Of a DNA stretch of 64,000 nt, positions 25,375 through 64,000 are shown piece by piece (the stretch's first letter is position 1; each line of letters opens with the position of its first letter). Location of the stretch: NCBI RefSeq assembly GCF_000516985.1, contig NW_006917097.1, positions 3,262,593 to 3,326,592 on the forward strand, in the 5' to 3' direction. A program made the translations under genes and the position numbers. The DNA is from Pestalotiopsis fici W106-1. Its lineage: Eukaryota; Ascomycota; Sordariomycetes; Amphisphaeriales; Sporocadaceae. The notes under the pieces were generated by a model. It was given only the letters and a program-made list of their open reading frames with translations, was not told the DNA's origin and made no database searches.

Positions 25375-26469
25375 ATGAGTAGCCCTCGCAGACGTATTGA
25401 GACTGATGTAAGTCCCTTCGCAAGAGATAGTCGGGTCAACATGCATGTTGCAAACGCCATACTAACCATGAGTTTTGCCTCCAGGTCATGAAGTAACCAT
25501 GACCCTCTGCCAATGGCTTGGTGTACATTCGCTGACCCGATCTACAGGATGTACGGCGCAAACCCCCTCGACAACGACGATTATTGCCCCGGACCCTCTG
25601 GATGCTAATGCTATGTCGAAAATAGGCTCATGAGCGACTACGAGGTCACTCTGGTCAATGATAATAGTAACTTGGATCCTCCCTGTTTATGCGACGCCAG
25701 ACCGCAGGCAGACTAACCTTTGTTACAGTGTAACACGCGACCACTCTTTTCTACCTCCGATAAACAAGCGCTTATAATGATGTAGGCAAGAGTTCTATGT
25801 GCGATTCAAGGGACCGTCTGAGAGTGCGTATTTCCTATCCGTCACTGACAACGCCAAGTCTTTCCGCTAATACGTGTGACAATAGCACCCTTCGAAGACG
25901 GAGTGTGGAAAGTCCACGTCGAGTTGCCCGACCAATACCCGTATAAGTCGCCCAGTATCGGCTTCGTCAACCGCATCTACCATCCCAACATCGATGAGCT
26001 GTGAGTGTTTTGGTCTCCCGAATGAAACACATAACAGCAGTTCAAGAGAAGGAACAGTCACTAAAAAGAGACGGTTTTCTTTTACAGGTCCGGCTCTGTC
26101 TGCCTGGATGTCATCAACCAGACCTGGTCTCCGATGTTCGATATGATCAATATTTTCGAGGTCTTTTTGCCCCAGCTTCTACGTTATCCCAACCCTGCGG
26201 ATCCTCTGAACGGCGAGGCGGCGGCACTGCTCATGAGAGAACCAAAGAGCTACGATGCAAAAGTCAAGGGTACGCGGCCAATCGCACCGATACACGAAGT
26301 TTTGGAACAAACACGGCTGACAAGAATCGCAGAATATGTGACAAAATACGCCAGCAAGGACGCTGTTGATGAGGCCGGCGCCGAGAGCGAGGACGACGAC
26401 GACATGTCTTCCGTGGCCAGTTTCGGGGATGAGGAAGAAGAGCCGCTCGGTCAGATGGACGATGTATGA
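25375..26469 (+). CDS. ubc8: Ubiquitin-conjugating enzyme E2, Ubc8/UBE2H type
   Basis: This E2 carries ubiquitin to substrates. In yeast, Ubc8 works with the GID/CTLH ligase that degrades gluconeogenic enzymes. My model has eight exons: 25375-25407, 25485-25492 (8 nt), 25548-25550 (3 nt), 25626-25666, 25729 (1 nt), 25786-25823, 25886-26000 and 26088-26469, giving 206 residues. Seen: the N-terminus [48 protein letters not shown], and the active-site Cys in [15 protein letters not shown]. The acidic C-terminal tail (EDDDDMSS...DEEEEP) is typical of Ubc8. The 1-nt exon is needed to keep frame and to restore the Met of NDNMQEF. The 3-nt exon restores the one residue otherwise missing from the first helix (KMLMSDYEV). 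All introns are 55-87 bp. Confidence 0.92.
25548..25550 (+). other. ubc8: Predicted 3-nt microexon of ubc8
   Basis: The triplet GAT is preceded by a CTGAC branch and CTACAG acceptor and followed by a GTACGG donor. It splits a 133-bp intron into introns of 55 and 75 bp. Including it gives K-M-L-M-S-D, the same helix length as yeast and human orthologues. Skipping it leaves frame intact but deletes one residue. Confidence 0.65.
25729..25729 (+). other. ubc8: Predicted 1-nt microexon of ubc8
   Basis: A single T sits between TTACAG (with a GACTAAC branch 5' of it) and GTAACA. Introns of 62 and 56 bp flank it. Joining A (25666), T (25729) and G (25786) makes the ATG for the conserved Met of NDNMQEF. 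Without it the downstream frame is lost. Confidence 0.75.
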
Positions 26470-26767
26470 ACTGGCGGCCAGCCATAATGTTTTCTTGAGT
26501 TATCTGTTTCACACGACCACAAGTCAGGATCAAGGAGTCCCGGATTGGTATCATGGCTTGGGACAGGTTCATCCGTTTGGAGTTTGCATATAATTGATTT
26601 CTAGGGGTTTAAACCTGTCAGCGAGTCGCCATGTTGATATTTTTAGGTGGTCCTGGTGTTTTGCACGTCGACTGGCTTCTGAATCTTTTACTAAACAGTT
26701 GTCTCCATTCTCACACTCAGCAACATATGTTCTATTCAAAGTGATCAGTCGTGCCGAAATTACCCAA

Positions 26768-29519: not shown

Positions 29520-30590
29520 TCAGTCTGTGTCAGAGTCGTAGCTCACCAAAGCCACCGATGCCGTGTCCCTTTTCACCTTGTGCTCCGGGGACGATCTGCC
29601 AGTCTCTGGATCTTCATCTTCAACACGCTTCCGCTTGATACCTGGCATCCTATGGGAAGCTTTAGTGACAGACGCGCTCCTGTCCAAATTCAAAAATGGA
29701 TCAGTGACAACTCGCGTATTCCCGACTAATTCAGACACCAAGTTGTCCTTTGTCTGCTCCGCCTTGACTTCGGATTTGAGCCGCTTTGCCCCAATCAAAG
29801 CTTCGTTCTTGGGCCTTGGGGCCTTTTTGTCGAATAAAGGTCGGCTCAAGCCTTTTCGTTCCAAATCGTCCTCTCGACCGTCTTGCAAAGTCGAGCCAAA
29901 GTCGATTAGACCGGCCCGTCGCTTGTCCTCTTCTCTCTCGGCCACAAGTTCAATACCCAAACTCAGTTTGTCTTTTAGTTCCTCTGTCTTGAGCGCGTCC
30001 TTTTCCCGCTCGTGCCGACCGACCCTGAATTCTTTTCTCAACCGTCGGTTCATCTCGTAAGGATCTTCCCACGTCCTGTTATTGGTCTCTTGCAGCTCCT
30101 CCACCCTCTGCCTCCCGACAATCAGCTGTTCGCGATCCTCGATGGTCTTTTCGAGTCTCGCAAACGAGTTGTTTCGGAGCTTCTCCCGCTCGGCGTCGGT
30201 CAAGATCTCCAAGTCGCCCTCGCGGACCTTGCCCTCGGCATCGTCGCGGCGCCGGCCGCCCTCGGTCACCACGTACGCCGTGTTCTGCGGATCGGTCCGG
30301 ACCTCGATGGTGCCGCCGCAGTCGGCGTGCTTCATGCGAAACGCAAAGATGGGGGTCGAGTAGTAGGAGCCCACGCGGCTCTTGGCGGCGTTGAAGCGCA
30401 CGCCCTGCCCGATTATGGTCGGCTTGGGGCAGGTCCCGCACCACACGGCAAAGGGCATCTCGAAGCGCACCGTCAGGGCGCCGGGCTTGGACGCCCGCGA
30501 GCCGAGCGGGTGCTTCTTGTGTAGCTTGTTGCCCGAGACCGTCCCCTCGAGGTCCGGGGGGACGTACCGGCCCATGTTGAAGCCCTGCAT
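29520..30590 (-). CDS. Yju2/CWC16-family splicing factor (CCDC130/YJU2B-like)
   Basis: This 356-residue, single-exon protein belongs to the Yju2/CWC16 family of spliceosome-associated factors acting in the nucleus around the catalytic steps. Seen: the start MQGFNMGRYVPPD, the zinc-binding pair WCGTCPKP near residue 52, RFNAAKSRVGSYYSTPIFAFRMKH, a second pair in HADCGG, and IEVRTDPQNTAYVV. A charged coiled-coil region and a basic C-terminus with KRKRVEDED follow. The length and the long charged tail fit the CCDC130-like branch better than Yju2 itself. It is GC-rich in the first half, which produces long open frames on the other strand that are not genes. Confidence 0.88.
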   Translation of the reverse strand: MQGFNMGRYVPPDLEGTVSGNKLHKKHPLGSRASKPGALTVRFEMPFAVWCGTCPKPTIIGQGVRFNAAKSRVGSYYSTPIFAFRMKHADCGGTIEVRTDPQNTAYVVTEGGRRRDDAEGKVREGDLEILTDAEREKLRNNSFARLEKTIEDREQLIVGRQRVEELQETNNRTWEDPYEMNRRLRKEFRVGRHEREKDALKTEELKDKLSLGIELVAEREEDKRRAGLIDFGSTLQDGREDDLERKGLSRPLFDKKAPRPKNEALIGAKRLKSEVKAEQTKDNLVSELVGNTRVVTDPFLNLDRSASVTKASHRMPGIKRKRVEDEDPETGRSSPEHKVKRDTASVALVSYDSDTD

Positions 30591-34922: not shown

Positions 34923-36239
34923 TCACGGCAGCATGGCTGGCTTTATCTGAGGGATGAGTTCTGGGTTCCGTCTCCATGTCACCTGATCTCCTTTGAGCGG
35001 TGGATAACATCGCTCATGCGGAGTCGTTCTCGCGATATAATTAGCAGTCTCGGGAAGCTTTAGGACATTCCGCACAAACGCATCAATGGTCATGGCACCT
35101 TCGGAGGCTTCACCATTCTCTCCAATCAACGACAGCGTGGGGACCAGGTGCAGCCAGAATAACGTACCGTTGGCCCGGCGGCCCAAGTCGACGACCGCCG
35201 CCAGAATGTGCGACCAGTGTAGTGCCCACTCGGGGTTGAGGGTGCCGGCGCCCTGACGGCATTCTATAGTTGGCTTGACGTGATTGAGGAGGTTGTCAAA
35301 GGTATAGGCAGGGCGGTCGGGCGCCGTCATCATCTTGATCACGGCGGGCACGCTCGTTGTTCCCAAGAGCGCCTCGACGCCGCGCTGGAGGGTGGCGCGG
35401 GGGGTCGGCACTTCGGGTTCGTACTCGCGCGTCCATTCATCCCACGTGTTAACAGTGTGACGAGGGTTGTTGGCCTCTTCAGCCGTCATTCCTGCACCCG
35501 CGTTGGTCCAGTTGCGGATGCTGGGGTGGTTAAACGGGTCCAGGCGGCGGTGTCCGGGATGAAGGCTATTGAAGAGTCTCTCGACGCACAAGAATAGGGC
35601 GGCGAGTTGTTTTGCGGCGTCGGCGTCGAAAAAGACATTTCCCTGGCCAATGTGAATATGTAATCCACAGCATTTCGGTGTAAAACACAGGAATACATTC
35701 TGGATTATCTCCAATACCGTTTTGATCTGCTTGTCAGCATCGGGATCATTGTCGAGCAGAGGGGGCGATACAATCTCCACGTCGGCGAGTTGATATGGTC
35801 CGGCGTCCTCGGACCAATGATCCGCCCAGAGTGCCCCGAGACTAGCGTCTGATTTGATATTCCAACGATAGTAGACCGGAGCGCCAGCCACTTGGGCGTT
35901 CGGGTGACCGGGCTCAGGGGGGAGGGTATCGTAGGTCTCGACGGATCCGGGGTCGTTGCAGTCGATGCCGTGCATAGTCAAGAGCCCGTACAAGATGTGA
36001 TGGCACTCGTTGCGTGCGTCTGCAAACATGATCTCCGGCACATCATGGTAGAAATTTTCTCTGGGTAGCACAATACAACCAGCGTACATGGTAAAGTGTT
36101 TACCCTCGGGAATGACAATGTCTTGGTAGCCGTCAACCTTGTCAAAGCGAAATGGTATAAGGAATTCAAACTCAAACCCTCGAGTCAGAGGAGGGAAGCG
36201 CGTCGCTTTCATACCAGGTGTGGGAGGCTGGGACGACAT
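34923..36239 (-). CDS. Putative amidoligase (GCS/GS fold), copy 1
   Basis: This 438-residue, single-exon protein belongs to the Amidoligase_2 group of carboxylate-amine ligases with a glutamine-synthetase-like fold, thought to make ATP-dependent amide or peptide bonds on unknown substrates. Seen: the N-terminal metal motif GFEFEFLIPF (ExE, residues about 21-30), the central LADVEIVSPPL, and CGLHIHIGQGN (HxHxG) about residue 198. Later come LNHVKPTIECRQGAG and the C-terminal helical region. It lies 413 bp from the oxidase gene on the same strand. The second copy at 63033 shares all N-terminal motifs. The substrate is unknown. Confidence 0.85.
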   Translation of the reverse strand: MSSQPPTPGMKATRFPPLTRGFEFEFLIPFRFDKVDGYQDIVIPEGKHFTMYAGCIVLPRENFYHDVPEIMFADARNECHHILYGLLTMHGIDCNDPGSVETYDTLPPEPGHPNAQVAGAPVYYRWNIKSDASLGALWADHWSEDAGPYQLADVEIVSPPLLDNDPDADKQIKTVLEIIQNVFLCFTPKCCGLHIHIGQGNVFFDADAAKQLAALFLCVERLFNSLHPGHRRLDPFNHPSIRNWTNAGAGMTAEEANNPRHTVNTWDEWTREYEPEVPTPRATLQRGVEALLGTTSVPAVIKMMTAPDRPAYTFDNLLNHVKPTIECRQGAGTLNPEWALHWSHILAAVVDLGRRANGTLFWLHLVPTLSLIGENGEASEGAMTIDAFVRNVLKLPETANYIARTTPHERCYPPLKGDQVTWRRNPELIPQIKPAMLP

Positions 36240-63032: not shown

Positions 63033-64000
63033 ATGGCCACCAAAGGCAGAGGTGTCAGCAAAGCATCTTCCAGCAAAGGTGCTGGCAAAACTTCTGGCAA
63101 AAAAGCCCCCAGCAAAGATTCCAAGAAACCTCCCAGGGTATTTCCCGTCCTCACCAAGGGCATCGAGTTTGAGTTTCTCGTGCCATGGCATTTCGACGTT
63201 GACGAAGACGGGAACGGAGGAACGGCCCTTGCGCCCGACCAGCGGTACCGGATCACGGACGGCTACGTGATTGTCGCGCGCCACACCGTCGCGACTGATA
63301 GTTCCGGCGCCGCGAGTATGAGCACCTGGAATGCGGCAATGACCATGGTGCGGGTGGCTATATACGACGTCCTCGTGGCCAATGGCGTCCAGGTCAACGT
63401 GCCTGGGGGCTTCACGATACCAGCCTTTGACCCTACGCATCCCCGCGCAGCCTTGACGAGAGGTGCGGGATTTCTCCGCTGGAATGTGAATAGCGACTCT
63501 AGTATCACGACGGATTTGGACGCAGGTGATTGGGTCGAGTGCGTTGATCCACCACAAACCGAGTTTGATCTCGCAGACATTGAACTCATTACACCAGTGT
63601 TGGAGGCTAACAACGCTGCAAGCGACGCTGAGATCACGAATGCCATTGGCATTCTCCGAGCTCATTTCTTGTGTTTTACTCCGACATCCAGTGGGCTTCA
63701 CGTCCACGTTGGCCAGGGGTCAGTCTTGTATGAAGAAGAGGACCTAAAGAGGATAGCAGGTGTGCTATTTGCCATTGATGTCTGGTTCCAACGGTTGCAC
63801 CCGAATCATCGGCAGAACTCTATGTATTGTGTAAGCACACGCCGAAAGTCATTCCTCGCACATGGCTACACGGCAAAGCAGGCCCACGATATGGAATACG
63901 GTCTTCTGGGGAATCCCTTCAATAACCCAAGCATTACGCCCGGCAACCCTGCGCCAGATGTCATTCAAGCCTGGAAAGAGATTGAGGCGGCTAGTGATAG
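63033..64000 (+). CDS. Putative amidoligase (GCS/GS fold), copy 2, partial at window end
   Basis: The frame is open from the ATG at 63033 to the window edge (322 codons and part of another), so the C-terminal part is missing. A basic N-terminal tail rich in Lys, Ser, Gly and Ala (MATKGRGVSKASSSKGAGK) precedes the family domain. Seen: KGIEFEFLVPWHF (ExE), GAGFLRWNVNSDSS, LADIELITPVL, FLCFTPTSSGLHVHVGQGS (HxHxG) and RLHPNHR. Each has a counterpart in copy 1 (GFEFEFLIPF, LADVEIVSPPL, FLCFTPKCCGLHIHIGQGN, SLHPGHR), but the Lys-rich tail is unique. It is not part of an evident cluster within the window. Confidence 0.85.
   Translation, partial: MATKGRGVSKASSSKGAGKTSGKKAPSKDSKKPPRVFPVLTKGIEFEFLVPWHFDVDEDGNGGTALAPDQRYRITDGYVIVARHTVATDSSGAASMSTWNAAMTMVRVAIYDVLVANGVQVNVPGGFTIPAFDPTHPRAALTRGAGFLRWNVNSDSSITTDLDAGDWVECVDPPQTEFDLADIELITPVLEANNAASDAEITNAIGILRAHFLCFTPTSSGLHVHVGQGSVLYEEEDLKRIAGVLFAIDVWFQRLHPNHRQNSMYCVSTRRKSFLAHGYTAKQAHDMEYGLLGNPFNNPSITPGNPAPDVIQAWKEIEAASD

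Follow-up and report, generated by a model that had tools for sequence, protein, structure and literature searches.

The nuclear exons of one nucleotide that have been published are those of plant APC11 (PMC4674806), plant VPS55 (PMC8831610) and Fusarium CYP621A (PMC12940212), and there may be further nuclear cases beyond these three. The CYP621A report presents its finding as the first in a fungus and the second in any gene, though the exon of VPS55 had already been published (PMC12940212, PMC8831610). The CYP621A exon had been missed by annotation, and in F. graminearum its AG-N-GT sits in an interval of 139 nt (PMC12940212). For Arabidopsis APC11 it was proposed that the introns around the 1-nt exon leave successively, by intron definition (PMC4674806). 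The short introns of Pezizomycotina are spliced by intron definition, as the consecutive excision of stwintrons shows (PMC6616335), and for animals there is a speculative model in which PRP-40 bridges the introns adjoining microexons (PMC8378409).

In this study we analysed a stretch of 64,000 nucleotides (the window) of the genome of Pestalotiopsis fici W106-1, which comprises 51.7 Mb on 20 contigs. The window carries the gene ubc8, whose 5′ end appears to be cut by six short introns, out of eight in all, into exons of 33, 8, 3, 41, 1 and 38 nt. Text searches on ubc8 together with microexons or introns gave no literature on the gene structure of ubc8 among the matches listed (15 of 559 and 10 of 558), and the word ubc8 is absent from these matches. 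A conserved housekeeping gene with a 1-nt exon beside 3- and 8-nt exons would be another case of a rare kind.

Materials and Methods

Candidate gene structures were compared by dynamic-programming spliced alignment to yeast Ubc8, allowing either any GT or any GT/GC donor, any AG acceptor and introns of 40–400 nt.

The splice signals of the genome were modelled with a gene finder trained on the window and 22 stretches of 10 kb (284 kb together). In the run that was kept, the coding scores were fixed, the penalty was higher, and introns of at least 130 bp were disallowed, which cuts the upper tail of the lengths; ubc8 itself was not called. This run gave 71 genes with 114 introns (median 62 bp, 95th percentile 104 bp). 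These modelled introns have G at +5 in 105/114 cases, RCTRAY branch points, and YAG acceptors in 103/114 or AAG acceptors in 10/114 cases. For the final matrices we used those introns of the preceding round that ended in CAG/TAG and were flanked by exons of at least 40 nt (85 introns). Because signal strength played a part in the choice of the intron set, and the acceptor matrix is restricted to YAG, the percentiles of weak donors and of an AAG acceptor, which refer to the 114 modelled introns, are pessimistic.

Three other models were rejected: one based on codons only, which found too few genes (24); a signal-free Markov model, many of whose 105 introns are probably false (43 with AAG/GAG acceptors); and a model with signals whose penalty was set too low, which drifted to 52 exons in one "gene". 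Three internal exons of 12–13 nt are predicted among the 66 internal exons of the window and the 22 stretches.

Results

Identity and copy number of the gene

The gene at 25375–26469 (+) encodes a ubiquitin-conjugating enzyme (PF00179, 134.9 bits). Its coding sequence of 558 nt has a single stop and specifies 185 amino acids; it is spread over nine exons of 33, 8, 3, 41, 1, 38, 115, 182 and 137 nt, which are separated by eight introns, all GT-AG. The product matches 8pmq_E, which we take to be yeast Ubc8, with 240.5 bits and without gaps over residues 1–178. Further PDB matches among the best 60 of 249 are 8pjn_2 (E2 H, human UBE2H) with 224.8 bits, 2z5d_A (E2 H) with 221, 2onu_A with 209.5 and 1yf9_A with 192.4 bits, and within these best 60 the next E2 after the Ubc8/UBE2H group is E2 13 at only 101.4 bits. 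By the best match of the whole predicted protein and by its UBC fold the gene is ubc8, an E2 of the yeast Ubc8/human UBE2H class; the name that the original prediction had given it is borne out by the PDB matches and by PF00179. In yeast, the Ubc8 E2 is linked to gluconeogenesis.

A second ubc8 copy was not seen genome-wide. The 13 remaining protein matches in the genome reach at most 48% identity, from which we infer a single copy, and ubc8 appears to be a working single-copy gene. Scans for stray fungal ubc8 confirmed 0/87 pattern matches in bacterial and archaeal contigs and 0/5 in viral contigs, and a blastn search of plasmids with 25800–26470 gave no match.

Exon–intron layout

The predicted features of ubc8 are the following:

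25375..25407, + strand: exon 1, 33 nt, 11 residues, aligning with MSSSKRRIETD of 8pmq_E; intron 1 follows in phase 0
25408..25484, + strand: intron 1, 77 bp, GTAAGT...TACTAAC...CTCCAG
25485..25492, + strand: 8-nt exon, GTCATGAA, encoding V M K-
25493..25547, + strand: intron 2, 55 bp, donor GTAACC, branch point CGCTGAC, CTACAG
25548..25550, + strand: 3-nt exon, GAT, which ends a Lys codon and opens a Met codon (AA/GAT/G)
25551..25625, + strand: intron 3, 75 bp, GTACGG...TGCTAAT...AAATAG
25626..25666, + strand: exon 4, 41 nt, G- then 14 residues
25667..25728, + strand: intron 4, 62 bp, GTAACT...GACTAAC...TTACAG
25729, + strand: candidate 1-nt exon, T, middle base of ATG (A/T/G) for the Met of NDNMQEF
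25730..25785, + strand: intron 5, 56 bp, donor GTAACA, poor branch point, ATGTAG
25786..25823, + strand: exon 6, 38 nt, G- then 13 residues
25786..25790, + strand: GCAAG with a rival AAG acceptor ending at 25790, in frame without the 1-nt exon
25824..26469, + strand: remainder of the gene, with intron 6, exon 7 (25886–26000), intron 7, exon 8 (26088–26269), intron 8 and exon 9 with the stop (26333–26469)

Coordinates, lengths and motifs of the zone of tiny exons are all as they had been predicted. Skipping of the 8-nt exon (25485–25492) shifts the frame, and we regard this exon as close to certain. The 3-nt exon (25548–25550) is likely. The 1-nt exon T25729, which stands in the context TTACAG-T-GTAACA between introns of 62 and 56 bp, is in our judgement likely as well.

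Choice of the gene model by protein alignment

With yeast Ubc8 as reference, the model with exons of 33/8/3/41/1/38 nt at its start was returned exactly in 6/6 settings (two donor sets; intron penalties 0, 4 and 8), in agreement with the earlier claim that the tiny exons are needed to keep the Ubc8 sequence. At penalty 0 the free alignment scored 256, compared to 220 with exons of at least 2 nt and 207 with exons of at least 4 nt; with exons of at least 9 nt the score was 192 (196 with GC donors). The best yeast-referenced model that dispenses with the 1-nt exon uses the AAG acceptor at 25790 and reads NDNKF for NDNMQEF. When human UBE2H was the sole reference, the model with the 1-nt exon scored 183 versus 182 for the AAG model at penalty 0, and at penalty 4 the AAG model won while retaining the 8- and 3-nt exons. 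At penalty 8 and with GT donors the top score of 142 was shared by AAG-acceptor models that include the 3-nt exon and ones that omit it; once GC donors were allowed, a model that has none of the tiny exons won (143). The 1-nt exon could thus not be established from human UBE2H by itself; the hairpin of this protein is one residue shorter than that of yeast Ubc8.

A profile of four PDB relatives gave 258.6 bits to the full model, 253.0 to the model lacking the 3-nt exon, 248.0 to the AAG model and 242.3 to the model with both changes. The first two values agree with the claim that GAT at 25548–25550, which splits 133 bp into introns of 55 and 75 bp, restores the length of the helix. In pairwise BLAST the form with the 3-nt exon is ahead of the form without it against 8pmq (221/216 bits), 8pjn (203/199) and 2onu (199/194), whereas against 1yf9 the shorter form is slightly ahead (184 versus 182). 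Against human UBE2H the lead of the full model over the AAG model is small, with 203 bits versus 202.

The Met of NDNMQEF matches 8pmq_E, and an acidic residue before the Phe is common to the four PDB relatives (QEF, NEF, QDF, AEF), where the AAG model has Lys. If T25729 is skipped and 25667–25785 are removed altogether, the frame shifts and a stop follows after 98 residues. The base had been described as required both for the frame and for the Met: for the Met this holds, but the frame can also be restored by the AAG acceptor at 25790, with the loss of two residues.

Acceptors and donors of the tiny exons

The acceptor with branch point at 25728 scores 16.27 bits, a value that none of the 114 modelled introns exceeds, and it ranks 1 of the 27 AGs in 25400–25900. 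The other acceptors of this zone, likewise taken with their branch points, stand at the 98th percentile (25484), the 58th (25547), the 51st (25625) and the 10.5th (25785), compared to the 100th at 25728. As the acceptor at 25728 is the strongest in the zone, an intron end at this position is hard to avoid, and an exon starting at 25729 must also end there, because retaining the following bases gives ATG TAA at once. The acceptors that would fix the starts of the 8-, 3- and 1-nt exons range in strength from ordinary to very high.

The donors beside the tiny exons are weak. That of intron 1 stands at the 85th percentile, those of introns 2, 3 and 4 at the 1.8th, 7th and 6th (GTACGG in intron 3, GTAACT in intron 4). 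The GTAAC donors of introns 2, 4 and 5 (25493, 25667 and 25730) make up 3/8 of the donors of ubc8 and are found in 0/114 modelled introns and in 0/105 introns of the signal-free model, which is cruder; in the run with too low a penalty, which was too permissive and was discarded, GTAAC accounts for 12/457 donors and intron 5 reaches the 20th percentile. Ranked by the matrix or by predicted U1 pairing, the weaker half of the gene's eight donors consists of exactly those that adjoin the tiny exons (25493, 25551, 25667, 25730); by our own arithmetic one such ranking would arise by chance 1 time in 70, and it was noticed after the fact. The weakest of the eight donors is GTAACA of intron 5 with −0.38 bits (1.8th percentile). 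The branch point of this intron is at the 2.6th percentile, and its total of 6.89 bits is below all 114 modelled introns. Consequently, of the signals that had been reported around T25729 the consensus acceptor is confirmed, but GTAACA cannot be taken as a plain donor, since it is weak for this genome. What is found at T25729 is a single base flanked by AG and GT with segments of intron length on both sides, and with a poor branch point in intron 5.

Expectation by chance

The 119-bp interval was shuffled 20,000 times with its dinucleotide composition preserved. An AG-N-GT that leaves space for an intron on each side arose in 963 of the shuffles, with N being T in 208; AG-T-GT with the observed strength of acceptor and branch point arose in 0/20,000. 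The 284 kb contain 1,524 AG-N-GT sites on both strands, and the ubc8 site is the sole one with T and such acceptor strength. All of these properties were combined in 4/41,140 genomic "non-genic" 119-mers, which most likely are overlapping windows on ubc8, because the gene is contained in that set and no other such site was found. For the 3-nt exon GAT, a chance equivalent (residues K/R followed by M/L/I/V, with both signals) arose in 1/20,000 shuffles and was present in 6/40,848 overlapping non-genic 133-mers, a set that includes ubc8, as the gene was not called by the gene finder. Without the tiny exons the undivided intervals would measure 119 and 133 bp, versus the modelled median of 62 bp and 95th percentile of 104 bp (at least 130 bp being disallowed in the model).

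Copies of introner-like type were not found: 25660–25800 and 25400–25640 each match only themselves in the genome. Duplication of introns was considered and rejected, as 2/28 pairs of the eight introns (1–2 and 2–3) had p<0.05, which is about the level of chance.

Alternative explanations

The main rival to the 1-nt exon is the AAG acceptor at 25790, by which one intron of 124 bp would extend from 25667 and the protein would read NDNKFYVRF, two residues shorter. This model is in frame, it is the top model for yeast Ubc8 when exons below 2 nt are forbidden, and with human UBE2H as the only reference, with its shorter hairpin, it is level with the 1-nt model or above it. Nevertheless, its acceptor with branch point scores −0.15 bits and its intron 3.22 bits in total, below all 114 modelled introns under a YAG-only matrix that penalises any AAG. 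In addition, it passes over the strongest acceptor of the zone at 25728 and over a TAG five bases upstream, and it loses the conserved acidic residue together with 10.6 profile bits, so that we consider this acceptor an unlikely choice. The weak signals of intron 5 would also suit an error of assembly or sequencing, with a base missing near the exon edge and a single true intron of 119 bp (25667–25785), as one extra base restores the frame. The strong acceptor, the branch point and the correctly placed T-GT would then be a coincidence that the shuffles never produced and that is unique among the AG-N-GT sites; moreover, such an intron exceeds the 95th percentile of modelled lengths and the 3-nt exon is left unexplained. 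An error of this kind is therefore very improbable.

Stwintrons are documented in Pezizomycotina (PMC5639578, PMC6616335), and the two abutting short introns resemble them; in a stwintron no base of 25667–25785 would be kept in the mRNA. This would entail the frameshift and early stop described above for the loss of all 119 bases, and no split donor is formed at the junction (ATA+T/GTAACA), which leaves this explanation with hardly any probability. A further alternative concerns the 3-nt exon, which might be skipped always or sometimes. The protein would stay in frame with a first helix shorter by one residue, the donor GTAACC of intron 2 is among the weakest, the loss costs just 5.6 profile bits and 1yf9 slightly prefers the shorter form. 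On the other hand, the acceptor with branch point at 25547 is ordinary, the skipped intron would have 133 bp, and three of the PDB relatives, 8pmq, 8pjn and 2onu, favour the longer helix. We regard skipping as rather unlikely.

Neighbouring loci

About 3 kb downstream of ubc8 lies a gene of the Saf4/Yju2 family (PF04502, 239.5 bits) at 29520–30590 (−). Members of this family are splicing factors; the vicinity is probably a coincidence. An Amidoligase_2 gene (PF12224) is found at 34923–36239 (−), and the start of a predicted protein at 63033–63834 (+) resembles its product by eye. Elsewhere in the genome, one RibD_C (RIB7-like) gene adjoins a purine/cytosine permease (L026:8195-9530, L027:1-830), a neighbourhood as it is described for Fusarium CYP621A (PMC12940212). 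CYP621A was sought there as a positive control, but the P450 motif FxxGxRxCxG was not found in 20 kb around the two genes; a motif split by an intron would escape this search.

Discussion

Proposed splicing of the tiny exons

We favour, with considerable though not complete confidence, the explanation that ubc8 is spliced stepwise by ordinary intron definition and has exons of 8, 3 and 1 nt. An exon of one nucleotide is unlikely to be bound from both sides at once, and thus its introns should leave in turn. The strength of the signals suggests an order. Intron 4 would leave first, drawn by its very strong GACTAAC/TTACAG, and exon 4 would from then on end in T25729. Next, intron 5 with its 56 nt would be recognised like any other short intron that has a weak donor, and its removal would be slower. 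In this order U1 and the acceptor-binding factors would never share the single base. Removal of intron 4 does not strengthen the donor of intron 5 (from −0.38 to −0.95 bits), and we therefore expect the excision of intron 5 to be the slow step. The 3-nt exon would be dealt with likewise.

Such an ordered route is plausible. In potato invertase, of the introns beside a 9-nt exon, the second leaves first (reported in PMC4674806), so that the order with intron 4 first is not certain for ubc8. The original prediction held that simple intron-definition models struggle with 1-nt exons, which is too strong, as intron definition with introns of 55–75 bp and stepwise splicing can cope with such exons, in the way argued for Arabidopsis APC11 (PMC4674806) and shown for fungal stwintrons that are spliced in several steps (PMC6616335).

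When intron 5 is retained, AUG UAA is read immediately after the junction. The intermediate that keeps this intron would encode only 29 residues and should face nonsense-mediated decay. One could go further and see the start of ubc8 as an acceptor-driven, obligatorily ordered splicing cassette in which weak donors and strong upstream acceptors are kept and the retained intron 5 serves as a built-in off switch, possibly conserved in related fungi; we find this doubtful.

If the 1-nt exon is real, the ability of fungal spliceosomes to process an exon of minimal size would seem to extend beyond one P450 family. The 5′ end of ubc8 is a compact site for testing the order of splicing and acceptor-led intron definition. 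Exons of three bases and of a single base are a structure that gene-finding software easily misses, and automatic annotations of ubc8 probably contain errors in the N-terminal region of the protein.

Comparison with known one-nucleotide exons

The case of Fusarium CYP621A (Nelson and Syed 2026, PMC12940212) has much in common with ubc8. Both genes are nuclear genes of filamentous fungi, in both an AG-N-GT contributes the middle base of a conserved codon, and in both the junction passes from phase 1 to phase 2. The base is G within AGGGT in CYP621A and T in ubc8. The two genes themselves are of different kinds: CYP621A encodes a P450 that is said to be rarely expressed, whereas ubc8 encodes a conserved E2 and has 3- and 8-nt exons within 250 bp. 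Also, the exon of CYP621A is backed by 18 SRA reads and by Fusarium orthologues, whereas that of ubc8 is predicted from the genomic sequence (PMC12940212).

Within the ascomycetes, the mitochondrial rnl gene of an Ophiostomatales strain likewise has one exonic base between two introns (PMC12308204). In contrast to the nuclear ubc8, these are group II introns of a mitochondrial rRNA gene (PMC12308204). The stwintrons resemble the arrangement in ubc8 in that two abutting short U2 introns need consecutive removal by intron definition, but they keep no exonic base between the introns, whereas ubc8 is predicted to keep the T (PMC5639578, PMC6616335).

The plant exons differ from the ubc8 exon in several respects. 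In Arabidopsis APC11 the interval measures 422 nt and is longer than that of ubc8 (PMC4674806), and the donors of VPS55 are GTRAGT as opposed to GTAACA in ubc8 (PMC8831610). Both plant exons have been verified by RT-PCR, that of APC11 also by reporter mutants, while the ubc8 exon is derived from sequence (PMC4674806, PMC8831610). As in APC11 and VPS55, the predicted exon of one nucleotide in ubc8 is needed for the frame of a conserved gene (PMC4674806, PMC8831610).
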